Origin: a virus
Strand: one strand, 5' to 3'
IMG/VR virus record: IMGVR_UViG_3300047558_000261
Coordinates: 1-48,758 of that record
Length of the DNA: 48,758 nt
Positions 16,236 through 47,294 of the stretch are shown here, one piece after another (position 1 is the stretch's first letter; the number at the start of each line of letters is the position of its first letter). The notes below the pieces were generated by a model. The model did not search any database and was not told the DNA's origin. It saw only the letters and a program-made list of their open reading frames with translations. The position numbers and the translations under genes are program-made.

Positions 16236-19200
16236 ATGGCAGACAGTTACCGCGACTACTTCAACGACCGCATCACTCAAGAAATGGACCGCCAAAAGGA
16301 ATACGGTCTGAATGCCAAGTACGATGCGGTGCAAAAAGCCAGCGATGAGAAGATTGCGCAGCTGAAAGAAGAAATTCGCACCAATACCCGCAACGACGAT
16401 CTCTATTGGAAGAGCCGCACGGGTTCTTCGGTGCTGGAAGACTTTGCTGATGTGGGTCTGGCGGGTGTGCAAGGTGCAGAAACGCTTCTGAAGCTGCCCA
16501 CCATGGTTGTCGACAAGGCCATGACTGGCAATTTCTATGGTCCTGCCACGCAAAAACTCAGCGAGTGGCAAGACGATCAAGAGAAGATGAAATCGGCCTT
16601 GTCCCAGTACAAGACCCAAGAAAAAAGTGCTGTCACGGCCGAACGTGGCCAAGCCGTCAAGGATGCCGTGGGTGATGGGCTTGCCGGCACAGCGGCTCAG
16701 GTGGCTACCGAGTTCGGATCGTCTTTCTGGGAAGCCATGAAGGATCCCACGAGCATCCCTGAGTTCTTGGCTCAGCAAGCCGCACAGTTGGGCGTGACCG
16801 GCAAGGTCGGCCGTACCGTGGAAGCCGGTGCCAAGGTTGCCGCCAAGGCAGCGCCGAAGCTGGCCGCTACCAAGTTGGGTGAAGCCGCTCTCGAGAAGAG
16901 CGCTACAGCCGGTGCTGTTGGCTTCAGTGCTGGGTTGCAGGGCATCGATGTCGGCTCTGACACGATGCAACGCCTCATGGCCCTGCCAGATGACCTCTGG
17001 CTTCAGAACCCTGAGTACCTCGCCCGCGCGCAAGAGGTGGGTGCCGACGCAGCCAAACAGGAAATCGCATCCGACCTGGCCAGCAAAGCCACGTTGGCCG
17101 CAGCCGGCGCTTCGTTGCTGAGCACCAAGATGGTCCCCGGGGGTGCTGCCCTCGAGAAGGCTCTCGTTGGCAAGGGTAAGGCCAGCATCGGCATGGTGCC
17201 CAAGGTGTTTGCTGCCGAAGGTACCCAAGAAGGTTTGGAGGAAGGCTCTGGCCAGTTCCTCAACAACGTCGCTACCCGACAGATCAACCCCAACCAGTCA
17301 TTGGCTGAGGGTGTGGGTAATGCTGCCGGCCAAGGCGCCTTCATGGGTGGCTTGTTGGGTGGTGGGGTGCAAGCCCTGAACACCACAGTCCCTGAGTCGA
17401 TTCGCAATCTCGCCGTTGCACGTGTACAGGAGAGCAGCGATCAGGACACGCTCAAGGCAATCATCGCAAGCGGCGACGTGTCTGCGTTAGTCGATCCCAA
17501 GAGCGCGACCTACAACCCTGGTTTGGCTGTGCAAGGTCTTCAAGCCATTGCATCGCAAGAAGGCAAGTCCGCAGAGGACAAGCAAGCAGCACTCGAGCAA
17601 GCCGCCAAGGTGGTGTCGGATGCGCAGACCCATGTGGAAACGCTGAAAAACAGTTTGAGCCGCATCACCAAGGAAGGTCTGGTAGCAGATCTGGCCATGG
17701 CCAACGATGCGCTGGCCGCAACCGATCCTACCGACACCAATCAGGTCAATGTCATCAAGACATGGATCGATGGTGTGCAAGGCAAGATTGATCGCTTCGA
17801 TGAGAAGGCTGCAGCAGAGACGTTGGCCACTCGCCAGCAAGAAATCACTGCATTGGAAGACCAGATTCAGGCATCCAAGGACACGGTCTCCCGTTTTCGT
17901 AAAGACCTGCAGTCGGTTGATGTGGATGTCGAAGCGGAAGCCAAGAACATCACGGCCGCAGACCCTGTGGCTTCACAAGCAGCAGCCGACAAGATCATCA
18001 ATTTGTCGATGGCTGCACCTGAGCGCTTGTCCGATGAGACAGCTCAGCGATTGGCTCAGTCAGAAAGCCTGACTGCAGACCAGCGCGCGTACTTCCGTGT
18101 GTTCTCGAAGGCGCGTGCGCATGCCAACAGTCTGCTCACCATGGGTGAGACCAGCCAAGAGATTTACCTGGGTGCAGCGGCCGACCCTACCAAAGGCAAA
18201 CCACGCATGCTGGGCATCAAGGACTACCGAGAGGAAGTCGGCAATGCACTGGCCACTGGAGACCGCAAGGAAGCTGCACGCTTCCTGATCCTGCTCAAGG
18301 CATTTGCCACAGGCCATGCCAAGAAAGCCAAGTTGGTCACCGATGCCTATGCCGAAGTCAAGGCCGGCGGCGCTGATCGCCGTCTGGTGCGCTTGGCCGA
18401 TGGGAATTGGAAAGTGGAAGAGGGCAAGTTTGCTTCGGCAGACGCCCGTCAAGAAAACGGTGGTTTGGACATCACCAAGGCATCGGCAAAGTTGCCGCGG
18501 GAAATCCAAACTGAAGCAGCTGCACTGAGTTCTGCCTATGACGAGCTGACTGCAGCGTACAAAGTCAAGTTTGGTGGTTCCAATGTCAAGAACGTATCAC
18601 CCGCCCCGGGAGTTCAAGAGAGCTCGACAGAGCAAGCTACGGCCCCGGCAGAAGCAAGTGCCGAAGCAGGAGCTGCAAGCGATGAACAAGGATCCGCAAA
18701 GCCAGATGTACAGAGCAGCAAGTCAGCTGACACAGCTGAAGCGGCTCAAGCCGATGGAGTAACTGAGGAAGCCTCCGGCTCTTCTGCGAAGACTGTAGAA
18801 ACTGTGTCGACTGAATCTACTAAGTCGACTACAGCTGAAACCCAGTCTACTGAGGAAGGTACCACAGTCGAAGACGTGCCCGAAGCGGCACTTGAAGATG
18901 CGTCGAGCACTCAAGGCTTGTCGGTATTTCAAGACAAGTCGGCCGATGAAGTGTTGCCTGCAGGTACCAAGTTGGGTGCTGTGTATCGCACCCTCAACAA
19001 GGCTGTGGCTTTCCTGACCCAGACTAAGAAGCGCATCGAAAAGGATGCGGACATCGCCAAGGATCGTCCCCTGGTGTCGGTCGGCAACCTGCTGAGCCTG
19101 TGGAATGCCGGCACAGTGGTACCCACGGACTTCTTCCAAGAGTCATTGACCGACGAAGAGATTGGCTCGCTGACCAACTTCCAGAAGTTTGCCAATAAGT

Positions 19201-22200
19201 GGGCACCCCTGATCCGTGAGCAATTGATCAAGGGTGGCTTGGCCAATTTAAAGGGTGTCAAGCCACGAGCAGACTTCTTGTTCGAAGATCCGCTCCAAGA
19301 CTTCTTCAATGCAGATGGTTCGGTGGACGAGAACCTCGTCACGGCCATTGCCTATGGTGCCTACAGCTGGATGGCTGAGACCGTCAACGGTACGGCATTG
19401 AAGGACTCCGAAGCCATCCTGAAGATGAATGGCTTGCGCGAGAACATGGACTTGTCGGTGACCACTGCGGGCATGAAAGCCTTGTCGGATCTGGCCACGA
19501 CGCAAGACCGTGCCGCTGCCAACATCGGCAAGCACATCGTCGACGCCTTGGGCCTGAAAGCCAACGCAAAAGCCGAAGCCAATTACATGGCCAAACTGCA
19601 GACAGCTTTTGGCCTGCAAGCCATTGTGCTCTTGGCTTCACAAGACCTCATTGACACCGTGAATTACACCGGTGCCGAGATGAACGAATTCATCGATGGC
19701 TTGAACGTGGACAACGAGTTTGCCCAGTTTGAGTACGTGCGCGTGGTTCGCAGCAATCTCAAGCTAACCGGCGCCAACAAGGAGATCAAGGATTCCTCCG
19801 TAGGCTCACGCGGTGTGCTGACTCGTATGTTCAGCTCCGAGGCTTCACCCGCTTACGCTTCTTGGGTCCCACGTCGTTTTTCTCAGGCCTACGCAAAGAA
19901 GACCGGCCAGAACATCACCGAGAAGCAACGCAAGATCTTGGACGCAGCCCAGCAAGTCCCCCATCGCATCATCCCAGCCATGTGGAATGCGTTGAACGTG
20001 TTGGGTGACACCGTGATCCTGCAAGCCGCTGGCTGGAAGGAGTACGACGAGTCCAAATTGCACGTCGAGAACCGTTTGAACATGCAAGCCAAGAACGACG
20101 GCTTGGAAGTTCAGCTCGAAGGCATGAAGAACTTGGTGCAAGACGCAGAGAAGAACAGCCCCAACAAACTGGAGCAGGCCTTCTATGCGACTTACGAAGT
20201 GTGGCGAAACTTCCGTGTGGGTGTGGCAACTCAAGACATGAACTTGCAAGGCAGCAAGATCCATCGCTTCATGTTCTACCGCCCTGAGTGGGTGACCAAG
20301 TTGAACCTGAACGACCGCAAGGCCATGGACCGATTCGAGTTGGCCGTGGCTCAGGCATTTGGGGTCAAGGTGGACCAGCAGAACAATGTGGCCACGCTGC
20401 AGTTGTTCAACGATCGCATGGCTGAGAACGACGGTGCGATCAAGAAGCTTGCCATGGCCGTTGCCGCGGCAATCGAATCCAATGATGCCAATGCCTTGAC
20501 CGGCGGTCAGAAGCAAGAGGTTGCTGAGTTTGCTGCCGGTCGTGAAGGCATGCAATCTCTCCAGGCCCTGGTGGCTTACGGCAAAGTGTTGAATGCCGTG
20601 GCTCAGCAAGAGTCCGGTGCTGACGTGAACGATGTCACTGTGCACATGCTGGTGGGCGTGGACGGCAAGACCAACGGCCCGATCTTGACTCAGTTGGCTT
20701 TGGGTGCTGCCGATACGGCCAAGAACTTGTTCACCCGTCTGAACCGTGGCGGCATGTACAAGAGCGACGACGGCGTCAAGAACTACAACCACTGGTACGA
20801 GCGCGCGACCAGCTTGGACCTGTACGAAGACTTGGCCTTCCAGATCTTGAACGGCATCGCCGTGACCAAGGACTTTGCAGCCATCAGCGTCTTTACCAAA
20901 AAACTGATCGACGAGAACGAAAAAGTCACCACCGACGGCCGCAAGCTGGCCAAGACACCGCTGACCGCTTTCATCTTTGGTTCGTCCATTGATGGTTCGG
21001 TGCGCAGCATGCAGGAAGCTTTCGTCCAGCAAGTGATTGACCGCATCGAAGCGGTGGCCACTGGCCAAGACAAGAAGACCAGTCGTGCGGATTTGATCTT
21101 TGGTTTGAACCAGCTGCTGGGTACCAACCTGTCCGAGAACACCCCCATCGACGAACTGATGGAGAAGCGCTTCACGAAGGCAGACCGTCAAAAGCTGGCC
21201 GACAAGTTCTATGAGCAGATCGGCTCACGTGTTGAAGACACCATGAAGGCGTACTTCGAAACGTACCTGAACCGCCGCAATGACATCAACCGCACGATCC
21301 AAGGATCGTTCGAGATCTACAACGCGATCTACCAAGACCTCAAGGCCAAGGAAATCCAACGCTTGATCGAGGCAGGCGAGATCGACACCGTTGAACGTGA
21401 CGGCAAGAAGGTCCCGATCCACAACATGACGATGGCTCAAGAGCAAGCCTTGCGTGAGAAGGTCAAGGCCATCATGCCTATGGCCAACACTGCTTACACG
21501 GTCGACAACAACGAGCTCGATGCTGGCCTGATGATGGCCAAGAACAGTCCAATGACGAGCGACGAGGCCAGCAACCGCGTCAAGATCCAGTTGGGCAAGC
21601 GCATTCCGAAGAAAAACGGCTATCCCGTGTCGACATTCGTGGGTCAAGCCCTGACTCAGAGCGAACGCAACCCCGGGGTTGCCGGTTTGCCGTACTTCAT
21701 GCACTCGCTGGACAGTTTCATCATGCACATGTCTCTGATCGGGACTGAAACACTGAACGTGCACGACGAAGCGGCGAACGGGGTGGGCAATGTGGAGAAA
21801 ACAGCCCAAGCCATCAACCAATCGACTTGGGAAGGCATGCTCAAATTCTCGCCAGCGACCGAAAGTTACAACATGCTTGTGCGCGTGCTGCAAAACGCAG
21901 CCCAGATGGCTCAGGCAGGGGAACTTTCCCCCGAAGCACTGGCCGGCATCAAGCAGGCACTGCGTGCGCAGCTCCCTTACGCGCTGCGTAACGAGATTGC
22001 TGACGACAAACTGGCATCGGTAGTGTTGGATCTGGCTTTCCGTGCCCAGTTCGAAGCCAACCGCGTCCGTTTGGAGACCTTGGCTCAGATGACATCTATC
22101 GACCAGTACACCTGGGAAGGTGGCGAGTACATGGTGACCAAGCAGGACCGCCAAAACGCGCAGGAAGCCCTCCAAAAGCACCTGCAGGTGTCTGCGGTAG

Positions 22201-25200
22201 ACCCAACCCTCATTGCGGCCACAGAGGCCCTGAATAAGGCCTTGGCTGAGACGTCCGTAAAGGCCGATCCGGTGGTGATCGAGCAGGACAAGACGGTCGG
22301 CAAGAGCTCGATCGGTGAGTTGGGCAAGCCTGCCATCGCCAGCGATCGTGATCTGGTGGAATTCTTCAGGGTAAACCCGAATGCCACGGCCAAGCAGGTG
22401 ATTGATCTGTTGTCGGCGGCAGGGCGCCTCAGCCCTGTGAACCGCAAGTTGCTGCAACTGGTCAGCCGTGTGGTCTCAGCTGATCTGCCGATCCAGTACG
22501 TGACCTCGCGCACGACGGAAGAGCAAGTGCTCGAGAAAGCCAAGTCCCCCTCACGCGGTTGGTACGTGGTGAAGGGCAATGCAGAGTCGATCTACGTCCT
22601 GAGCCCTGAGTTCAAGAACTCTGGCTTGACGGCTGAGACCTTGCTGCATGAATTGATCCATGCCGCCGTGGCCAAGACGATTGCCAACCCCACGGCCGAA
22701 GGCAAGAAGCTGGTGGGTGAGCTGGAATCTCTCATGGCCAAGGCCAAGGAGTTCGCTGCAGCCAATGGCCTGACCCAGTTCGATGCGGCACTGAATGACG
22801 TTCAAGAATTCGTGGCTTGGGGCATGAGCAATCTGGACTTCCAGAAGGAAGTCTTGACCAAGATCACCTTCGAGTCCAAGACTCGTGGCAGTGCTCTGGT
22901 GACCGGCATGCAGAAGTTCATCTCCACGCTGGTCGGCTTGCTCTACAAGAAGCCTGATGAAAACATGGACAGTGGTCTGTCGGTGTTGGTGAGCAACGTG
23001 TCTGGTCTCTTCAACGAAGCCAGCCAACAAACCAACGAAACCACAAGCATCAATCTGTCTCAGCAAAGCCAGCAAGCAGGGGCGGAGTTCACTGCCCAGC
23101 AAGTGTTCAAGTCTTTGGACAAGGGCAACGTCAGCCCATCCTTCCAAAGCCACATGAGCAACTTGCTCTCTGGCATGGTGCAGTCGGTCTACGGTCCGTT
23201 CGGTACCTTGAAGGAAGCGATGAAGTCGTCCATGGCCAGCACTCCGATGGATGCTTGGCTCAAGGCGATCGAGACTGGGGTGGCACCGTTTGCTTCGAAG
23301 TTGGTGAACTCCAACTTTGCAGCCAGTGCACAGGAAGTGTTCGTGATGGAGCAGGTCGAAGCCACAGTGGCCTCGGCACTGAGCATCAACGACATCACCA
23401 CCAAGCCGGCATACCGCGAGCTCTACAAGCTCTTCACCGAAGCCAAGGAAACGCTGACCGTTCAGGACTTCGTGAACGCTGGCTTCACAGCAGCGGATCA
23501 TGCTTTCGTCTTCAACATCGAAGGTGGCAACGATGGTCGTTCGGACTACCTGTCTCGCTTTGCTGCGCTGGGCCTAGCCAATGAGAAGTTCAAGGGTCTG
23601 CTGAACTTCAAGACGGAAGCTGGTCGCGTGAATGTGGGCAACGAGAAGTCGCTCTTCGATCGTTTGAACGCTTGGTTCGAACAGATCTTGGCCTACTTCA
23701 ACCACAAGGCCACCAACACCTACGCGGGTCAGAAGGCTGACTCCAAGTTGGAAGCACTGGTCGATCGCCTGATGGACATCGAAGCCAAGCATCGCTTCAA
23801 GGCCAATGCCGGTGAGACCGCGTTCCAGAAGTACGGCGCCGTGGTCGAAGACATGACCAAGGATCTGGTCGACGCCTCCAAGCAGAAGGTCATCGACTGT
23901 GCCAACAGCCCGATCGTTCGCAACTCCTCCTCCGGTATCGTGAAGTGGGGTGCTGCGATCGGCAAGGTGGCGGCTTCGGGTCGTGCTGCTGCCGTGATGA
24001 CGGCACTGCGAAGCCTGCGTGATCATGCCACCGATGAGCGTGATGGTGTGTGGGCTGGCTTGATGCGTGAGATGAAGGGCCCTGCAGAGTTGGTTCAGGC
24101 CTTGCTCCTGATGACGAAGCACAGCGAGAACCTTCGCCAGAATGCCATCGCGCAAACGGCCAGCGTGTTGCTGAAAGAGTTCAAAAATGGCGGCAAGTCG
24201 TTGGGTAAGGAAGACAAGGTTGCATTGACTTCGGTGCTGCTGCGAAGCGGTGCCCACAACTTGATGGGTCAGTACTCGTTGGCTCAGATTGCGCAGATGG
24301 TCAGCAGCAACACCGCGTTGGACCAAGAAATTGCCGCGGTAGAAGCGTCGTTGACGACGGGCTTGAAGCAGATGCACATCAACATGGCCAAAGGCCTTGG
24401 CTACTTCAAAGCCACGGACCTGAACACCGTGCCGTTCCTGATGCGTAATGCCTACGTGATTGCTCGCATGTTGGACACCCAATACGCTGGCCAGATCACC
24501 GAAGCCCAAGCCGCTGCAGAAGAGAGCAAGATTGCTTCGTTGGTTTCGTTGTACGCGATCAAGTACAGCACCGTGAAGGATCGCCAAGCGGTGTCGTCCA
24601 TCATGGAGCAAGAGAACCTGCGCACCGATGGCAACGGGGTCGACCTGATGCTGAAGTTGCACAAGGACATGGAGCAGGAATCGCTAGATCGCCTCTTTAA
24701 TGGCAACCGTGTGCAGATGACCCATGGCTACACGCCTGAGATCTACGATGCTTACGTGACGATTCAGGTAGCCAATGAGCAAGAGGGTGCTCGCCTGGTA
24801 GCCCAGGGCTACGAGAAGGGTGACCTGGTGACGTCAGACAAGAACGTCCCTGATGCGGCCGGTGTCTACGGCATGAAGCAGCACATCTACATCCGCCGTG
24901 ACGGTGGTCTGACCCGTCGTGTGTCGGGTGTGATGTCGTTGACGGGTATGAAAGCCAAGGGCACGATGATCCACAACGGGTTCATGAACACGAACACCTA
25001 CCAAGGCACGTGGAACGCTTCGCTGCAGAACTCGGTGATGATTGCCAAGCAAGGTGAGTTGGCTGCCATGGCTTCGAATACGAACTTCGATCCGACGGCC
25101 AACAAGCAAGTGAACGTGGCTCCGGTCTATAACGACAACGGACACGTCGTGAACTGGGCCCACATGATGGGTGGCAAAACCAAGGATCGAATCTTGAAGC

Positions 25201-26552
25201 GCGAGAACCGCTTCGACAAGGTCATGGGCACCTTGGCTGGTTCGATCATCGACAAGCACAAGGGCCGTGAGCTGAACGAGCAAGCGATCACGGCGCTCTT
25301 GACCCAGTACACGGTAGAGAAGTCGGTGACGCCTTGGTCTTACGTGGAGATCGGTCCGCTCTCGAGCGATCCCGAGAACCGCGAGCTCTGGGACCTGTTG
25401 CCTGAGCAGACGCGCATGGACATTCGCAAGATCTGGGGCCGTGACTCAATCATGGTTCGCAAGGATTCTGTGGACGTGATCTTCGGCTACCGCAAACTCT
25501 CGGCCGGTGACTTCCTGAACAAGGAGCGCAAGGACTTGGAAGGTGTGGAGCTCATGGCTCGCAACCTCTTCAACTCGCTGGCTCTGTACCGCGGCAAGTC
25601 TCAAGAGGAAGCCGACGATTGGGCCAAACGCATGGGTGCTGCTGTCGTCAAGGGTGAGCGTGGCTGGCAGGAGATCTACAAGGAAGTCAAAGATATCATC
25701 GTGGTCAAGAACTTGATCACGCTCTTGGGCAACATTCACAGCAACGTGTCGTTGCTTTGGTTGCTCGGTGTGGATGATGGCTGGAAGCGTCAGTGGACGG
25801 CACTGCGCGGCATCATGGCCTACGAAGAGCACAGCAAGCGCTTGATGGAAATCCAGATGAAGCTGGACTCTGGCTATGCCGGCAACCGCTCAGTGCTCGA
25901 GCAAGAGGTGGTTCGCTTGCAGAACGAGATCGCGCGCAACCCAGTGACCAAGTTGGTCGAAGCTGGCTTGATGCCCACGATCGTGGAAGACGTGGACCTG
26001 CAGGAAGATCCCTACAGCTACAAGAGCGAGCTCAGCGAGAAGCTGGAGAAGTGGACCAACAAGTTGCCTGAGAGTGTGCGCAAGGCAAGCAAGGTGGTCT
26101 ACATGACCCACGACACGCCGCTCTACAAGGTGCTCAGCCGTGCTACTCAGTACTCAGACTTCGTGGCTCGCTATGCGATGTACGAGCACCTGACCACAGG
26201 CAAGGAACCGATGAGCCATGACAAGGCGATCCTAAAGACCTTGAACGCATTCGTGCACTACGACGTGCCAATGCAGCGCAACTTGCAGTACCTAGATGAC
26301 ATGGGCTTCACGCCCTTCATGAAGTACTTCTACCGTGTGCAGCGTGTCTTGTTCGAGACGATGAGGGAACGCCCTGCTCGGGCGTTGAGCATGATTCTGC
26401 TGAACAGATTTGTGGATTTGGGACCCATCGTTCTGGATTCCTCACTGGTACATCACGCCGGCAACATGCCTTTCCGTGGGGGTGCGTTGCAGCTGCCAGG
26501 GGTATTGGATGAGCTCTTGACAGTCCAGGCTGGGCTGGCAGTCGTTAAATAA
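16236..26552 (+). CDS. Giant 3438-residue virion protein with zinc-peptidase motif
   Basis: One frame covers about a fifth of the window. The N-terminal part is helical and Ala-rich, with Gly/Ala stretches (about residues 150-380) that could insert in membranes. Residues 785-893 form a Ser/Thr/Glu/Ala low-complexity linker. A HELIH zinc-peptidase motif lies at residues 2138-2142, with a likely third ligand Glu2191 in DVQEFVAWG; this block resembles the peptidase found in large polyvalent phage proteins. The remaining long helical regions have no motif I recognise. Its position after ejection proteins suggests it is packaged and injected like T7 gp16, N4 vRNAP or Bcep22-type giant proteins. 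I see no T7-type RNA polymerase motifs. Activity of the peptidase is inferred. Confidence 0.75.
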   Translation: MADSYRDYFNDRITQEMDRQKEYGLNAKYDAVQKASDEKIAQLKEEIRTNTRNDDLYWKSRTGSSVLEDFADVGLAGVQGAETLLKLPTMVVDKAMTGNFYGPATQKLSEWQDDQEKMKSALSQYKTQEKSAVTAERGQAVKDAVGDGLAGTAAQVATEFGSSFWEAMKDPTSIPEFLAQQAAQLGVTGKVGRTVEAGAKVAAKAAPKLAATKLGEAALEKSATAGAVGFSAGLQGIDVGSDTMQRLMALPDDLWLQNPEYLARAQEVGADAAKQEIASDLASKATLAAAGASLLSTKMVPGGAALEKALVGKGKASIGMVPKVFAAEGTQEGLEEGSGQFLNNVATRQINPNQSLAEGVGNAAGQGAFMGGLLGGGVQALNTTVPESIRNLAVARVQESSDQDTLKAIIASGDVSALVDPKSATYNPGLAVQGLQAIASQEGKSAEDKQAALEQAAKVVSDAQTHVETLKNSLSRITKEGLVADLAMANDALAATDPTDTNQVNVIKTWIDGVQGKIDRFDEKAAAETLATRQQEITALEDQIQASKDTVSRFRKDLQSVDVDVEAEAKNITAADPVASQAAADKIINLSMAAPERLSDETAQRLAQSESLTADQRAYFRVFSKARAHANSLLTMGETSQEIYLGAAADPTKGKPRMLGIKDYREEVGNALATGDRKEAARFLILLKAFATGHAKKAKLVTDAYAEVKAGGADRRLVRLADGNWKVEEGKFASADARQENGGLDITKASAKLPREIQTEAAALSSAYDELTAAYKVKFGGSNVKNVSPAPGVQESSTEQATAPAEASAEAGAASDEQGSAKPDVQSSKSADTAEAAQADGVTEEASGSSAKTVETVSTESTKSTTAETQSTEEGTTVEDVPEAALEDASSTQGLSVFQDKSADEVLPAGTKLGAVYRTLNKAVAFLTQTKKRIEKDADIAKDRPLVSVGNLLSLWNAGTVVPTDFFQESLTDEEIGSLTNFQKFANKWAPLIREQLIKGGLANLKGVKPRADFLFEDPLQDFFNADGSVDENLVTAIAYGAYSWMAETVNGTALKDSEAILKMNGLRENMDLSVTTAGMKALSDLATTQDRAAANIGKHIVDALGLKANAKAEANYMAKLQTAFGLQAIVLLASQDLIDTVNYTGAEMNEFIDGLNVDNEFAQFEYVRVVRSNLKLTGANKEIKDSSVGSRGVLTRMFSSEASPAYASWVPRRFSQAYAKKTGQNITEKQRKILDAAQQVPHRIIPAMWNALNVLGDTVILQAAGWKEYDESKLHVENRLNMQAKNDGLEVQLEGMKNLVQDAEKNSPNKLEQAFYATYEVWRNFRVGVATQDMNLQGSKIHRFMFYRPEWVTKLNLNDRKAMDRFELAVAQAFGVKVDQQNNVATLQLFNDRMAENDGAIKKLAMAVAAAIESNDANALTGGQKQEVAEFAAGREGMQSLQALVAYGKVLNAVAQQESGADVNDVTVHMLVGVDGKTNGPILTQLALGAADTAKNLFTRLNRGGMYKSDDGVKNYNHWYERATSLDLYEDLAFQILNGIAVTKDFAAISVFTKKLIDENEKVTTDGRKLAKTPLTAFIFGSSIDGSVRSMQEAFVQQVIDRIEAVATGQDKKTSRADLIFGLNQLLGTNLSENTPIDELMEKRFTKADRQKLADKFYEQIGSRVEDTMKAYFETYLNRRNDINRTIQGSFEIYNAIYQDLKAKEIQRLIEAGEIDTVERDGKKVPIHNMTMAQEQALREKVKAIMPMANTAYTVDNNELDAGLMMAKNSPMTSDEASNRVKIQLGKRIPKKNGYPVSTFVGQALTQSERNPGVAGLPYFMHSLDSFIMHMSLIGTETLNVHDEAANGVGNVEKTAQAINQSTWEGMLKFSPATESYNMLVRVLQNAAQMAQAGELSPEALAGIKQALRAQLPYALRNEIADDKLASVVLDLAFRAQFEANRVRLETLAQMTSIDQYTWEGGEYMVTKQDRQNAQEALQKHLQVSAVDPTLIAATEALNKALAETSVKADPVVIEQDKTVGKSSIGELGKPAIASDRDLVEFFRVNPNATAKQVIDLLSAAGRLSPVNRKLLQLVSRVVSADLPIQYVTSRTTEEQVLEKAKSPSRGWYVVKGNAESIYVLSPEFKNSGLTAETLLHELIHAAVAKTIANPTAEGKKLVGELESLMAKAKEFAAANGLTQFDAALNDVQEFVAWGMSNLDFQKEVLTKITFESKTRGSALVTGMQKFISTLVGLLYKKPDENMDSGLSVLVSNVSGLFNEASQQTNETTSINLSQQSQQAGAEFTAQQVFKSLDKGNVSPSFQSHMSNLLSGMVQSVYGPFGTLKEAMKSSMASTPMDAWLKAIETGVAPFASKLVNSNFAASAQEVFVMEQVEATVASALSINDITTKPAYRELYKLFTEAKETLTVQDFVNAGFTAADHAFVFNIEGGNDGRSDYLSRFAALGLANEKFKGLLNFKTEAGRVNVGNEKSLFDRLNAWFEQILAYFNHKATNTYAGQKADSKLEALVDRLMDIEAKHRFKANAGETAFQKYGAVVEDMTKDLVDASKQKVIDCANSPIVRNSSSGIVKWGAAIGKVAASGRAAAVMTALRSLRDHATDERDGVWAGLMREMKGPAELVQALLLMTKHSENLRQNAIAQTASVLLKEFKNGGKSLGKEDKVALTSVLLRSGAHNLMGQYSLAQIAQMVSSNTALDQEIAAVEASLTTGLKQMHINMAKGLGYFKATDLNTVPFLMRNAYVIARMLDTQYAGQITEAQAAAEESKIASLVSLYAIKYSTVKDRQAVSSIMEQENLRTDGNGVDLMLKLHKDMEQESLDRLFNGNRVQMTHGYTPEIYDAYVTIQVANEQEGARLVAQGYEKGDLVTSDKNVPDAAGVYGMKQHIYIRRDGGLTRRVSGVMSLTGMKAKGTMIHNGFMNTNTYQGTWNASLQNSVMIAKQGELAAMASNTNFDPTANKQVNVAPVYNDNGHVVNWAHMMGGKTKDRILKRENRFDKVMGTLAGSIIDKHKGRELNEQAITALLTQYTVEKSVTPWSYVEIGPLSSDPENRELWDLLPEQTRMDIRKIWGRDSIMVRKDSVDVIFGYRKLSAGDFLNKERKDLEGVELMARNLFNSLALYRGKSQEEADDWAKRMGAAVVKGERGWQEIYKEVKDIIVVKNLITLLGNIHSNVSLLWLLGVDDGWKRQWTALRGIMAYEEHSKRLMEIQMKLDSGYAGNRSVLEQEVVRLQNEIARNPVTKLVEAGLMPTIVEDVDLQEDPYSYKSELSEKLEKWTNKLPESVRKASKVVYMTHDTPLYKVLSRATQYSDFVARYAMYEHLTTGKEPMSHDKAILKTLNAFVHYDVPMQRNLQYLDDMGFTPFMKYFYRVQRVLFETMRERPARALSMILLNRFVDLGPIVLDSSLVHHAGNMPFRGGALQLPGVLDELLTVQAGLAVVK

Positions 26553-43310: not shown

Positions 43311-44654
43311 ATGAAATTGAAACTAACCAATAACGCTGCTGCTACCTTAGCATCAGCAATCTCTGCAGGAGCTACAAGCGTTAGCTTGACTGCCGGTGGT
43401 GGAGCATTGTTCCCATCCTTGGCAGCGGGTGAGTACTTCTTTGCAACACTGATTGATGCTTCTAACTCACTTGAAGTTTTGAAGGTCACTGCCCGTGTTG
43501 GGGACACGCTCACTGTTCTGCGTGCCCAGGACAATACATCTGCTAAGGCATACGCTGCCGGTGACAAGTGTGAGTTGCGTTTGGTAGCTGCTGTGTTCAA
43601 TGAACTGATTCAACGTGACGGCTCTGTTGTGATGACAGCCAGTCTTGACCATGGAGGCTTCAAAGCTATCAACATAGCCGACCCAACTGCCGCGCAAGAT
43701 GCCGCAACTAAGAACTACGTTGATACTACTGCCGTAGCAGCCGTCAACGCAGAGGCAGCCACCCGACTTGCTGCTGACAATGCGGAAGCAACGGCTCGCT
43801 CCAACGCAGACGCCGGTAAGGTCAACCTCGATGGTGGTAATGCAACTGGCACATGGGCTGGCACAACAGAATGGACGCGCGTAAACAACAGGCCAACTGC
43901 GCTGAGTCAATTCTCAAACGATAGATTCTTTGAGAACGTCAGTGGCCTTGCTAGGGTTGGCTCCGGCGCCCTGAACTGTAACGGCAATACTGGTAACTGC
44001 TGGCCGGGGTCAGCCGCCGTCAACTGCTACGGCTCTGGAAACGTGCAGGCGATGCAGCTTGAATTAACTGATAACGGCACATCTGTTGGCATCCGAGGCG
44101 TCAACTACAACTACAACTGCAACTGCAACTGCGCATGTGATTGCTGCTGCTGTTTTGCAAAAGGCACATTGGTAAGAATGGCTGATGGCTCTGTAAAAGA
44201 GATTGAAAAAGTAATGGTTGGCGAGATGGTTAAGGGTTTGGTTGGGGATGTTTGTGTTGCGCACAAATTTGATACAACACTCAAAGGAAACTCTCTCTGG
44301 AAATTAAACGGCGACGTAACCGTCACTGGTGGCCACCTGTTCCTCGTTAACGGTGAGTGGGCGGCTATTGATATGGACGTGTACCCACATGGCGTTTTCT
44401 TCCGCTCAGAGCAGGAGTTTGATGAGTCTGGTCTTGTGGATATAAAACATCAGACGAAGTTGAGCGAGGTCGTTCGACAACTTAAAGTTGGCGACATTGC
44501 AAACGGAGTCGAAGTGTTGAGCATTGAGCGTGTTGACGCTGACTCAGACGTAAATGTTCACAACATGATTGTGAATGGCGGAGATGCTTTTATTTTGGCA
44601 ACCGGCGTAGCTGTTGATGGCTTCATGCGCCAATCATGCAAGGGGATGCAATGA
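43311..44654 (+). CDS. Tail-fibre protein with Cys-rich tip and C-terminal Hint domain
   Basis: The protein has 447 residues. Residues 1-100 are the usual fibre N-terminal module. Residues 117-170 (AINIADPTAAQDAATKNYVD, then a coiled coil) form a trimeric stalk. Residues 210-268 are Gly/Asn-rich with Cys223, Cys230 and Cys239. A Cys cluster follows at 270, 272, 274, 276 and 278-281. Cys281 begins a Hint domain: CFAKGTLVRMADGSVKEIE, then the block-B pattern TGGH (Thr339, His342). Near the end VNVHNMIVNGGDAFILATGV resembles block F, but the terminal His-Asn of splicing inteins is missing (VDGF instead). So I expect self-cleavage before Cys281, not splicing. The ATG has AAGGA upstream. Confidence 0.78.
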   Translation: MKLKLTNNAAATLASAISAGATSVSLTAGGGALFPSLAAGEYFFATLIDASNSLEVLKVTARVGDTLTVLRAQDNTSAKAYAAGDKCELRLVAAVFNELIQRDGSVVMTASLDHGGFKAINIADPTAAQDAATKNYVDTTAVAAVNAEAATRLAADNAEATARSNADAGKVNLDGGNATGTWAGTTEWTRVNNRPTALSQFSNDRFFENVSGLARVGSGALNCNGNTGNCWPGSAAVNCYGSGNVQAMQLELTDNGTSVGIRGVNYNYNCNCNCACDCCCCFAKGTLVRMADGSVKEIEKVMVGEMVKGLVGDVCVAHKFDTTLKGNSLWKLNGDVTVTGGHLFLVNGEWAAIDMDVYPHGVFFRSEQEFDESGLVDIKHQTKLSEVVRQLKVGDIANGVEVLSIERVDADSDVNVHNMIVNGGDAFILATGVAVDGFMRQSCKGMQ

Positions 44655-45433
44655 ACATTTTTAGCGGAACTTATAACACCACATCCGGTCTGCCAAAGAT
44701 AAATCTATTTATCGAAAAGTCTGGCGAATCGCTTCTGTTCTTCAACCTTTTTGAGTTGATTGACAATGACGAGTACGTTGGCGATGTAAGGCAAATCGGC
44801 GATAAGTCATTTGGCGTAGCCTCTACCCTCGCGTTTGATTTTGCAGAAATGCGCAATCACGCGCAGTGGGGGGACGCTGCCTCGTGGCATTTGTATGTAA
44901 CCGGCGGCGGGTTGTTGTACGTAGAGAACATTCACGCTGAGACGTTTTCGTCAAAAGCAAATGGCGGCGCGTATGCAACATCAAAATCAAAAATGCCAGT
45001 GGCGATTCTGTTTGTTCCGTATGCAGATTCGTCAATCCAAGATGCTGGAGTGATGTTGCAGATTGATGCAGACTCTATTGTTGGAACCTCCCCCGACCTC
45101 AGCATTGTTGAGTTTGATGGCAAGGGCGCGGATTTCAGAAGCGGGTTACTGCCGTCAATGACTCTGACATCTGCCGACTTGATTCAGAAAAATGCTGAAT
45201 TAGAATTTGCCGTGACGGTTATGCGCGGCGGCTCTGTGGATGAGTCTTGTAGCTCTGAGATTTGTATTGAATCTACTGGCGGGTATCTCCCGCTCCAGAG
45301 GGCGCAGGCAGTTCGTGGCGTTGCATCGTTCAACCTAAAGGCGCTTGACGTTCCATCGGGAAGCAAAATTAAGGTCAAAGTTGGCTTTAGAAATTTCTCC
45401 TCAATGGCAAGCAAGACGATTACTGTTATTTAA
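44651..45433 (+). CDS. Unknown beta-rich protein of the modification cassette
   Basis: The ATG at 44651 overlaps the stop of the fibre-Hint gene (ATGA), with AAGGGG just upstream, so the two are translationally coupled. The protein has 260 residues, no signal peptide and no membrane segment. The C-terminal half (SADLIQKNAELEFAVTVMRG, then GYLPLQRAQAVRGVASFNLK) looks like a small Ig-like domain with a Cys pair (ESCSSEIC). The middle has a Gly-rich patch (YVTGGGLLYVEN). I recognise no family. Tight coupling suggests a partner of the fibre tip: a second substrate, chaperone or tip subunit. Confidence 0.55.
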   Translation: MNIFSGTYNTTSGLPKINLFIEKSGESLLFFNLFELIDNDEYVGDVRQIGDKSFGVASTLAFDFAEMRNHAQWGDAASWHLYVTGGGLLYVENIHAETFSSKANGGAYATSKSKMPVAILFVPYADSSIQDAGVMLQIDADSIVGTSPDLSIVEFDGKGADFRSGLLPSMTLTSADLIQKNAELEFAVTVMRGGSVDESCSSEICIESTGGYLPLQRAQAVRGVASFNLKALDVPSGSKIKVKVGFRNFSSMASKTITVI

Positions 45434-45447
45434 CTCAAAGGCCCACC

Positions 45448-46794
45448 TTGGACACCAAACCAATTTACACGCTGACTTGTGAAGATGCTGATGGGAAATC
45501 CGTCACCCTAAAGTATTCGCCACATGACTCTGTTTTTTTTAAAGAAAACGATGAGCGCATCGCAGTCCCCGGGTTTGACAAACTGCCAAGTCCAACCATG
45601 TATACGGAAGTCGATGGGATTGGGCACGGCTCTGAAATGTCGCCGTCAAATCCCGCGAAAAAATCCAAGAGTCTGTATGTCTTGAAAATACAGATGGGCC
45701 TTAATTGCAACTACACGTGCGCTTATTGCAGCCAAGCAGCTCACTTGCAGCACAATGAGGCCGTAATCACAAACGTGGATGATGCTCGCGATTTTCTTGG
45801 CAGACTTGATGAGTGGCTTGAGTCGGCTCCGAAGCGAATTGAGTTTTGGGGCGGAGAGCCATTTGTCTACTGGAAGGCAATGCAGGTTTTGGTGAACGGG
45901 TTTAGAAAAAAATTCCCAGACGCTTCTTTTAATATCGTGACAAATGGCTCATTGCTTGACGAAGAGAAGTATGAGTTCATTGTCCAGAACGACATAGCTG
46001 TTGCAGTGTCTCACGATGGCCCCGGCCAGAGCGTGCGCGGCCCAGACCCGCTCGACGACCCTGAAATGTTTGCGGTGTGGAAAAAGTTTGTTGATACCCG
46101 CCAAGGAATGTTCAGCTTCAATAGCGTGCTCACATCAAAGAACTGTGACACATACGCTATTCGTAAGTGGTTTGTAGACCGCTTCGGCGAACATGTGGTC
46201 AGCAATTACGAGGGTGTGGCCCTTGTGCATGATGACGATTCTCGGAATCACGGAGATGTGCTGTTTGGTCAGGACGACTACAACGTCATGCAATCAACGA
46301 TGTATCGCTCAATCGTGGAGGGTGATGGATTTTCAAACCCAACTATCCGCTCAAAAGTAGAGGACATGATTCGCTCGTTTAAAAATGAGCGCTCTTCAAA
46401 GAAGCTCGGCCAAAAGTGCGGAATGGATAGAGAGGGTGCGCTTGCTGTTGACCTCAAGGGCAATGCCTTGACTTGCCACAACACTGGCGCTAACAGTAAG
46501 CACAACATTGGCAGCGTGTACGACTTTGAGAATATCTCACTTGACACATCTTGGCACTGGTCACAGCGAGAGTCTTGCAACTACTGCCCAGTTTTGCAAA
46601 CATGCCAAGGCTCTTGCATGTACCTTGAGGGTGACGACTTTGTCGACTCTTGCAACAATGAGTACGCTTACAACCTGCCAATCCTTCTAGGTTCTATTGA
46701 GCTTACATTTGGGTTGCGCGTGTTGAAGATTGAGGGCGACGTGCGTCGTCCGCAAAAGACAGGTCGCAAAGTGATTCCAATCAGGGCGGCCTGA
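45448..46794 (+). CDS. Radical SAM/SPASM maturase-like enzyme
   Basis: A TTG start at 45448 (448 residues) has AAAGG before it. Radical SAM cysteines are Cys87, Cys91 and Cys94 (CNYTCAYC). GGEP follows at 135-138 and a further conserved segment is NIVTNGSLLDEEK. The C-terminal SPASM domain has all seven cysteines in the family spacing: Cys324, Gly338, Cys343, then Cys377, 380, 386, 390 and Cys402, for two auxiliary clusters. Such enzymes alter side chains in peptides or proteins, as in sactipeptides and sulfatase maturases. Residues 1-75 may recognise the substrate. It overlaps the next gene (TGATG). Confidence 0.85.
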   Translation: MDTKPIYTLTCEDADGKSVTLKYSPHDSVFFKENDERIAVPGFDKLPSPTMYTEVDGIGHGSEMSPSNPAKKSKSLYVLKIQMGLNCNYTCAYCSQAAHLQHNEAVITNVDDARDFLGRLDEWLESAPKRIEFWGGEPFVYWKAMQVLVNGFRKKFPDASFNIVTNGSLLDEEKYEFIVQNDIAVAVSHDGPGQSVRGPDPLDDPEMFAVWKKFVDTRQGMFSFNSVLTSKNCDTYAIRKWFVDRFGEHVVSNYEGVALVHDDDSRNHGDVLFGQDDYNVMQSTMYRSIVEGDGFSNPTIRSKVEDMIRSFKNERSSKKLGQKCGMDREGALAVDLKGNALTCHNTGANSKHNIGSVYDFENISLDTSWHWSQRESCNYCPVLQTCQGSCMYLEGDDFVDSCNNEYAYNLPILLGSIELTFGLRVLKIEGDVRRPQKTGRKVIPIRAA

Positions 46795-47294
46795 TGGTCT
46801 CTATGCTTTTTGGAGTGCCTGTCGCAATTTTTAAAAACTGCGACATTGGGATGCACAACATGGCCGCAAGCAGCAGGTCGCTCACAGAGGAGCTTGGCAA
46901 ATTCATTGTCAAATCTGTGGGCGATTTCGCCACATCTGTTGGCGTTGTTGGCGACTTCGAGATTACAAAGTGGTGGGTTGTTGACATGAAGTTTGGGATG
47001 CAAAACCATCTTCATGTTCACCCGGACTCTGACGCATCTTGTGTTTATTACCTAGATGTTTCTGATGACGCTGTGCCGTTAAGTCTTGTTGACCAGCGGC
47101 CTTCGTCAATCTTCACAAATCACAGCGGCAAGAAATCCAATGGAGAAGTTGTCGGTGGGTACAAGTCAATAAACATCAAGCCCGCCTCTGGCGAGCTTGT
47201 TGTCTTCCCTTCATACGTTCCTCACTTTGTCTCAACAAAGCTGGATAACAAGAGAAGGGTATGTTTAGCTGCAAACCTAAAAATCCGGAGTTGA
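46794..47294 (+). CDS. 2-oxoglutarate/Fe(II) oxygenase
   Basis: The 166-residue protein matches the 2OG-FeII_Oxy_5 pattern. HLHVHPDSDASCVYYLDV gives probable Fe ligands His76 and Asp78 (His74 nearby). The third ligand is His144 in GELVVFPSYVPHFV, and Arg154/Arg155 would bind 2-oxoglutarate. The core is short, as usual in this family. Its start overlaps the radical SAM stop (TGATG), so the two enzymes are made together. It probably hydroxylates a protein or peptide; the substrate is not known. Confidence 0.8.
   Translation: MVSMLFGVPVAIFKNCDIGMHNMAASSRSLTEELGKFIVKSVGDFATSVGVVGDFEITKWWVVDMKFGMQNHLHVHPDSDASCVYYLDVSDDAVPLSLVDQRPSSIFTNHSGKKSNGEVVGGYKSINIKPASGELVVFPSYVPHFVSTKLDNKRRVCLAANLKIRS

Follow-up and report, generated by a model that had tools for sequence, protein, structure and literature searches.

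Why should a phage place a radical SAM enzyme and an oxygenase downstream of a tail-fibre gene, and why should that fibre end in a run of cysteines joined to a Hint domain? The window in which this arrangement is found (the whole stretch of DNA that was analysed) is a viral record of 48,758 bases from a podophage-like virus, as judged from its terminase, portal, head and tail genes identified by PHROGs. The cassette closes the tail-fibre region and comprises four plus-strand genes in the order fibre-Hint, 260-residue middle protein, radical SAM/SPASM enzyme (rSAM) and 2OG-Fe(II) oxygenase (2OG). The structural region of the window also contains an ORF of 3438 aa (16236-26552). The features of the cassette are as follows.

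43311..44654, + strand: 447-aa tail-fibre protein carrying a Cys tail and, at its C-terminus, a Hint domain; residues 1-164 match tail-fibre family phrog_8469 (6e-29); Vint match, 2e-6
43917..44135, + strand: tail-adjoining fibre region, residues 203-275, identified by identity to the Hint-less fibres of loci L092 and L099
44103..44150, + strand: Cys tail NYNYNCNCNCACDCCC, residues 265-280, which would be the substrate of rSAM and the C-terminus of the mature fibre
44151..44651, + strand: Hint domain, residues 281-447, with Cys1 = C281 and block-B TGGH (Vint PF14623)
44651..45433, + strand: middle protein, 260 aa, predicted to consist of an N-terminal beta-rich domain and a C-terminal Ig-like domain
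45152..45430, + strand: Ig-like domain of the middle protein, residues 168-260 (matches to intimin 1f00, Z 12.5, and GH2 enzyme 9bey, Z 13.2)
45448..46794, + strand: rSAM, 448 aa, TTG start (Radical_SAM PF04055, 4.8e-8; phrog_1802, 1.8e-56)
45706..45729, + strand: radical SAM cluster motif C87-x3-C91-x2-C94 (sequence and alignment)
46417..46653, + strand: SPASM region with Cys 324, 343, 377, 380, 386, 390 and 402, all seven invariant
46794..47294, + strand: 2OG-Fe(II) oxygenase, 166 aa (PF13759, 2e-17; phrog_81, 4e-23)

Coordinates, overlaps and motifs agree with the original prediction, down to the ATGA overlap of the fibre and middle-protein genes (44651-44654), the TGATG overlap of the rSAM and 2OG genes, the CNYTCAYC motif (C87, C91, C94) and full SPASM cysteine set of rSAM, and the assignment of the last gene as a 2OG/Fe(II) oxygenase. 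The eight cysteines announced for fibre residues 270-281 are at positions 270, 272, 274, 276, 278, 279, 280 and 281. The eighth, Cys281, is also the first residue of the Hint domain, into which the fibre does run straight (Vint PF14623 on residues 281-351, above the Pfam cut-off).

Comparison of homologues showed the core of the system to be a phage fibre protein whose C-terminus is an (N/A/D-Cys)n tail, paired with a dedicated rSAM. ORFs upstream of rSAM in related loci end, for example, in ...NCNCNCRC*, ...NCACVCACCCCCACCCNC* or ...NFNCNCNCACDCCC*, and the residues alternating with the tail cysteines are Asn (61%), Ala (17%) and Asp (10%; 594 positions). An rSAM search of IMG/VR yielded 53 loci; a 17-sequence rSAM profile matched 157 relatives in the genome collection, of which 80 were kept, and at least about 600 in IMG/VR. 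Hundreds of phages carry this set of genes together with this tail. The rSAM-first set comprised 120 loci after removal of redundancy at 90% rSAM identity, and in 93 of them a same-strand ORF upstream encodes the tail. Three further loci (L030, L035, L140) carry a Hint-type tail that the pattern missed, and eight of the remaining tail-less ones have less than about 2 kb of upstream sequence. Tail-bearing ORFs make up 101 of 2035 upstream ORFs, 0 of 2006 in the downstream control and 8 of 2434 on the opposite strand.

The linkage was also approached blindly from the opposite side, by searching IMG/VR with a DNA pattern for N-C-N-C-N-C-[NDAT]-C and no enzyme information, and counting distinct proteins that end in the tail and have at least 3 kb of sequence downstream. 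All 46 bare-tail loci had a same-strand rSAM profile match no more than 4.5 kb downstream, as did the three Hint-type loci with the same flank; no rSAM was found upstream of the tail or on the opposite strand in this test. Forty of the 46 matches reached at least 200 bits, and several of the six weaker ones were cut by the end of the locus or came from more distant enzymes. In searches with KC- and DCAC-tail patterns most loci were too short to reach an rSAM; on the contigs from which L197, L198 and L200 were taken, the distance from the KC tail down to rSAM is about 5 to 6.6 kb. A near full-length rSAM relative occurs in only 3 of 50,697 phage records, those of Achromobacter phages 2-1 and JWF, and in both phages a Cys-tail Hint fibre is encoded two genes upstream. 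These phages, the only cultured ones found with such an enzyme, share with the window the gene order Cys-tail Hint fibre, middle protein, rSAM (gp028-gp030 in JWF), but no 2OG was recognised beside their rSAM and their annotation is generic only. A match to the N-terminal part of the window fibre was found in the fibres of 60 records, none of which is one of the three rSAM-bearing Achromobacter records.

A chance or DNA-repeat artefact was rejected, as the tails are in frame at protein ends, their codons are mixed and rSAM goes with them. A dedicated maturase beside a Cys-rich candidate substrate, the pairing that marks RiPP-type systems, is found at 46 of 46 distinct tail loci, and the Cys tail is very likely the substrate of rSAM. 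The proposal that the enzymes act on the fibre tip thereby gains strong comparative support, rSAM lying just downstream in all complete NCNCNCxC-tail loci. The enzymes might instead have their target among molecules of the host surface or in a different protein of the phage, the tail being a neighbour that travels along; host-recognition clusters of pelagimyophages do encode radical SAM proteins, glycosyltransferases and others with no assigned target (PMC7029224). We consider this most improbable: fibre bodies of unrelated kinds and small proteins alike carry the tail, yet rSAM always accompanies it, in constant orientation, and several tails can precede one rSAM (L152, L062, L170).

Several variants of the arrangement were observed. 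Two or more tail proteins stand in tandem before a single rSAM in L152 (6547-7342), L062 (7206-7987), L170 (5969-6477) and L074/L164; the small ones have 70-100 residues and an N-terminus like MAYKVGSTIVIDDSGxIDWSRI. Two Hint fibres precede the single rSAM of L137. In L136, L124 and L126, variant tails with Cys at each third residue (CSYCSYCTYC) accompany related rSAMs, and L136 (Parasutterella) has several such proteins and a second rSAM. Minus-strand genes of three loci (L349:6665-7678, L348:6676-7707 and L217:41-934) represent a third architecture, in which the Cys tail is followed by CSKI(I/V)C and a domain of about 170 residues with a hydrophobic stretch at its C-terminal end. L212, L268 and L310 encode small proteins with CNCNCNCTRGIL-like ends, followed by several distant radical SAM genes one after another (40-186 bits). 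A near-identical ORF, SVCICISVLCDCACDCAC..., is present in L337, L340, L341, L344 and L351 with no rSAM; its motif is not C-terminal and it may be an antisense reading. The nearest non-viral relatives of the window's rSAM form a cellular clade (Variovorax, Ramlibacter) with no visible tail. These loci (L057-L061, L063, L134) lack phage genes as well, and often have before rSAM a short ORF with an end like SPLPxxKKxKRRSQxxDER, possibly an undescribed peptide system.

Alternating cysteines could also serve as metal ligands. Iron-holding HxH fibre tips are known in T4 (gp37) and have been proposed in marine phages (PMC11705849); as in gp37, potential ligand residues alternate at the fibre tip, and in an extended strand alternating Cys would set the thiols on one face, so that the cysteines of three chains might together hold iron or another metal in a needle, with the enzymes serving elsewhere or only tuning the site. 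The Cys tail differs from gp37, however, in having Cys rather than His, in being terminal and in always occurring with a radical SAM enzyme. A pure metal tail would need no such enzyme, yet 46 of 46 complete loci have one, and the alternating residue is limited to N/A/D. The metal needle is accordingly improbable as a full account, though metal binding could coexist with modification of the tail.

What reaction might rSAM catalyse? Its ten cluster cysteines, three of the radical SAM motif and seven of SPASM, are kept without exception in 69/69 rSAM sequences, and the TIGR04085 SPASM model scores above cut-off in relatives L003 and L024. The best NCBIfam matches are to PapB (4e-22), followed by nif11, CcpM, HxsB and SCIFF maturases. 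All named radical SAM families tried from NCBIfam nonetheless fell below cut-off, among them the PapB ranthipeptide maturase (NF047865; 78.9 bits vs 340), the SCIFF maturase (TIGR03974; 52.5 vs 425, despite the CteB-nearest fold described below) and the anaerobic sulfatase maturase (TIGR03942; 36.8 vs 349). By its sequence, then, rSAM is a new family that belongs broadly with the Cys-peptide and thioether maturases. The AlphaFold model (mean pLDDT 91.9) ranks closest to CteB (Z 24.2, 345-354 residues), followed by ChlB (22.2), anSME (21.6) and TigE (18.9), with SuiB (14.9) and the epimerase EpeE (13.2) lower down. At the N-terminus the model has three strands and no clear winged-helix RRE; the VIA alignment with CteB nevertheless starts as early as model residue 3, opposite CteB residue 1. 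A second, shorter radical SAM protein (MLNxFLGYACNFxCxYCLQ) is encoded directly upstream of the main rSAM at 14 loci (L155:6963-7979, L076, L139, L033 and others).

CteB forms thioethers in SCIFF peptides, and thioether cross-links are found in sactipeptides and ranthipeptides. The residues between the tail cysteines are known acceptors of such bonds: S-Calpha bonds to Asn and Ala have been proven in ruminococcin C, and in PapA the acceptor is Asp (PMC8172795); PMC9413430 gives Asp/Glu as the acceptors for PapB. Because of these acceptors, the CteB-nearest fold and the matches to Cys-peptide maturases, thioether formation on the Cys tail is our first choice, and by analogy the reaction we would expect on balance. 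The closest fold does not define the reaction, anSME being near CteB in the ranking. A different change to the tail, such as D-amino acids, formylglycine from Cys or a new C-C or C-N bond, would agree with the use of SPASM folds for different reactions, as seen in the scores of anSME, SuiB and EpeE. Radical SAM epimerases make alternating L/D peptides, which the strict alternation of the tail resembles; EpeE, the sole epimerase in the fold list, is however 11 Z units below CteB. Similarly, anSME turns Cys into formylglycine but reads a CxPxR/CxAxR sulfatase motif, which the tails do not have. With fold, sequence matches and the alternation of Cys with Asn/Ala/Asp all favouring thioethers, these other changes seem rather unlikely.

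The systems most like this one are the CteB/SCIFF, PapB ranthipeptide, CcpM and RumMC sactipeptide maturases, which have the same radical SAM core and seven-Cys SPASM domain and are likewise encoded beside a Cys-rich substrate (a candidate substrate in the phage). The phage enzyme differs in scoring far below all NCBIfam family cut-offs. Its candidate substrate is the C-terminus of a large fibre rather than a free peptide, and no exporter or leader peptidase was seen in the cassette, Hint or S74 standing in the peptidase's place. SPASM enzymes of the QhpD/anSME type resemble it in modifying a structural or enzymatic protein and not a peptide antibiotic, but their substrate context is another one, with no sulfatase or amine dehydrogenase in the phage cassette, and the sequence scores are low.

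The Hint domain of the window has both the catalytic Cys1 (C281) and the block-B His (TGGH). Hint domains directly follow the Cys run in a minority of tail loci; among 22 Hint-bearing tails, Cys1 is present in 21 (Ser in L172) and the block-B His in all 22, and none of them has the C-terminal His-Asn of a splicing end. The window's own Hint C-terminus, ...AVDGFMRQSCKGMQ, has neither the His-Asn end nor a C-extein and does not qualify as a splicing intein. What the domain would leave behind is suggested by the Hint-less fibres of L092 and L099 (Comamonadaceae), which are 53-55% identical to the window over the 73 residues 203-275. They end in ...NCNCNCACDCCC*, one residue before Cys1, whereas the window at the same place has ...NCNCNCACDCCC and then CFAKGT, the start of Hint; over the C-terminal ends, ...YNFNCNCNCACDCCC and a stop face ...YNYNCNCNCACDCCC, which continues into Hint. 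The stop codon of one fibre thus stands where the Hint domain of the other is expected to cut. The claim that Hint removal sets the mature end gains strong comparative support from this match, and self-removal leaving the mature tail end is the best reading of the aligned sequences. An essential role for Hint was rejected on the same grounds, related fibres without it stopping exactly at its start. On the rSAM tree, built by two methods (FastTree and quick IQ-TREE), the Hint/no-Hint state needs nine changes, at least six of them forced by well-supported branches. Such switching fits a freely gained and lost cap, since the mature end is the same either way. The original prediction took enzymes always found without a Cys-rich Hint fibre as evidence against it; the Cys tail has held as their partner and Hint, as a required part, has not, so the telling observation should be enzymes without a Cys tail.

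As the Hint C-termini lack His-Asn, the thioester would have no splicing partner, and the domain might pass the fibre end to another nucleophile, Hedgehog-like, in a ring closure, a ligation or a transfer to a small molecule. This is unlikely: many homologues gain the same end by a stop codon, as a plain carboxylate, and no special linkage therefore seems required. Self-removal of a cap may have a parallel in marine loci, where Peptidase_S74 (PF13884, 2.4e-13 in L198), a second kind of self-processing domain, follows a (Lys-Cys)n tail. The S74 endosialidase chaperone is likewise a fibre C-terminal domain that can be lost after assembly, but the domain of the present fibres is usually Hint, is placed exactly after the Cys tail and is interchangeable with a plain stop.

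The remaining genes are less constant. The window 2OG matches PF13759 with 63.9 bits (gathering cut-off 27) and falls short of TIGR02466 (54.8 vs 62.5). As a cassette member it holds for about half of the loci: 2OG-like genes are present in 50 of 115, or 35 of the 77 with at least 3 kb on both sides, and 19 loci carry two or more. Upstream positions relative to rSAM outnumber downstream ones (median -728 in a first survey of neighbouring genes). These counts make 2OG a regular but optional component. Tail composition did not differ between loci with and without 2OG, a result that speaks neither for nor against the tail Asn as its target. The 260-residue protein, correctly sized but called unknown in the original prediction, proved to be a common member (78 of 120 loci). 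Its model (pLDDT 94.2) has a C-terminal Ig-like domain whose matches include, besides the GH2 enzyme and intimin D0, the phage Chi neck protein (Z 11.7); Big_1/Invasin_D3 Pfam matches in a few middle proteins agree with this fold. No clear match to the N-terminal domain appeared in the VIA list, which the Ig-like domain fills. Our guess is a tip partner, chaperone or assembly factor.

Cys-tailed fibres are always beside their own rSAM, oxygenases are often near and Hint follows the tail in some, so that phages probably modify the fibre tip chemically. The reading is based on gene linkage, conservation, fold and the match of stop codon to Hint start, from which we infer the substrate, the type of bond, the timing, the hydroxylation target and the role in infection. 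The cassette likely matures the tip as follows. The fibre would be made with its alternating-Cys C-terminal tail (mostly Asn-Cys, Ala-Cys and Asp-Cys). The co-encoded rSAM would then modify this tail, most likely by joining Cys sulfurs to carbons of the neighbouring Asn, Ala or Asp. Where encoded, 2OG probably hydroxylates residues of the tail or tip, and the Ig-like middle protein would probably act as tip partner or assembly factor. The window's Hint would form a thioester at Cys281 and be released, leaving the same ...CDCCC end at which Hint-less relatives arrive by stop codon. At its host-meeting end the fibre would then carry a compact, chemically hardened tip.

No description of Cys-tailed fibres with rSAM was found in the open-licence literature, and modification of a phage fibre tip by a dedicated rSAM is, to our knowledge, undescribed. 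We know of few phage radical SAM enzymes with assigned targets so far; in the present case the sequence by itself is enough to name one. If the proposal is true, host recognition or entry in many Proteobacteria phages would depend on an enzyme-made tip chemistry invisible to sequence or AlphaFold alone, Hint domains would be used as timed C-terminal caps, and the loci would offer a large natural set of enzyme-substrate pairs for peptide cross-linking, with the NC/AC/DC repeat as a ready substrate. That all this amounts to a new principle of virion maturation, with an enzyme-made, non-protein-like fibre tip (thioether-bridged and hydroxylated), self-removing domains as protecting groups and a RiPP-like product at host contact, is conceivable but somewhat short of probable.

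The marine loci L197, L198 and L200 have (Lys-Cys)n tails with at least 20 Cys. Around rSAM they also encode several 2OG, at least two Trp-halogenase-like flavoproteins (PF04820, 4.8e-77), another SPASM-like protein and what may be a glycosyltransferase. Judged by gene content, these sets look like a very large tip- or peptide-modification cluster, and the tips of the marine relatives are perhaps also halogenated.
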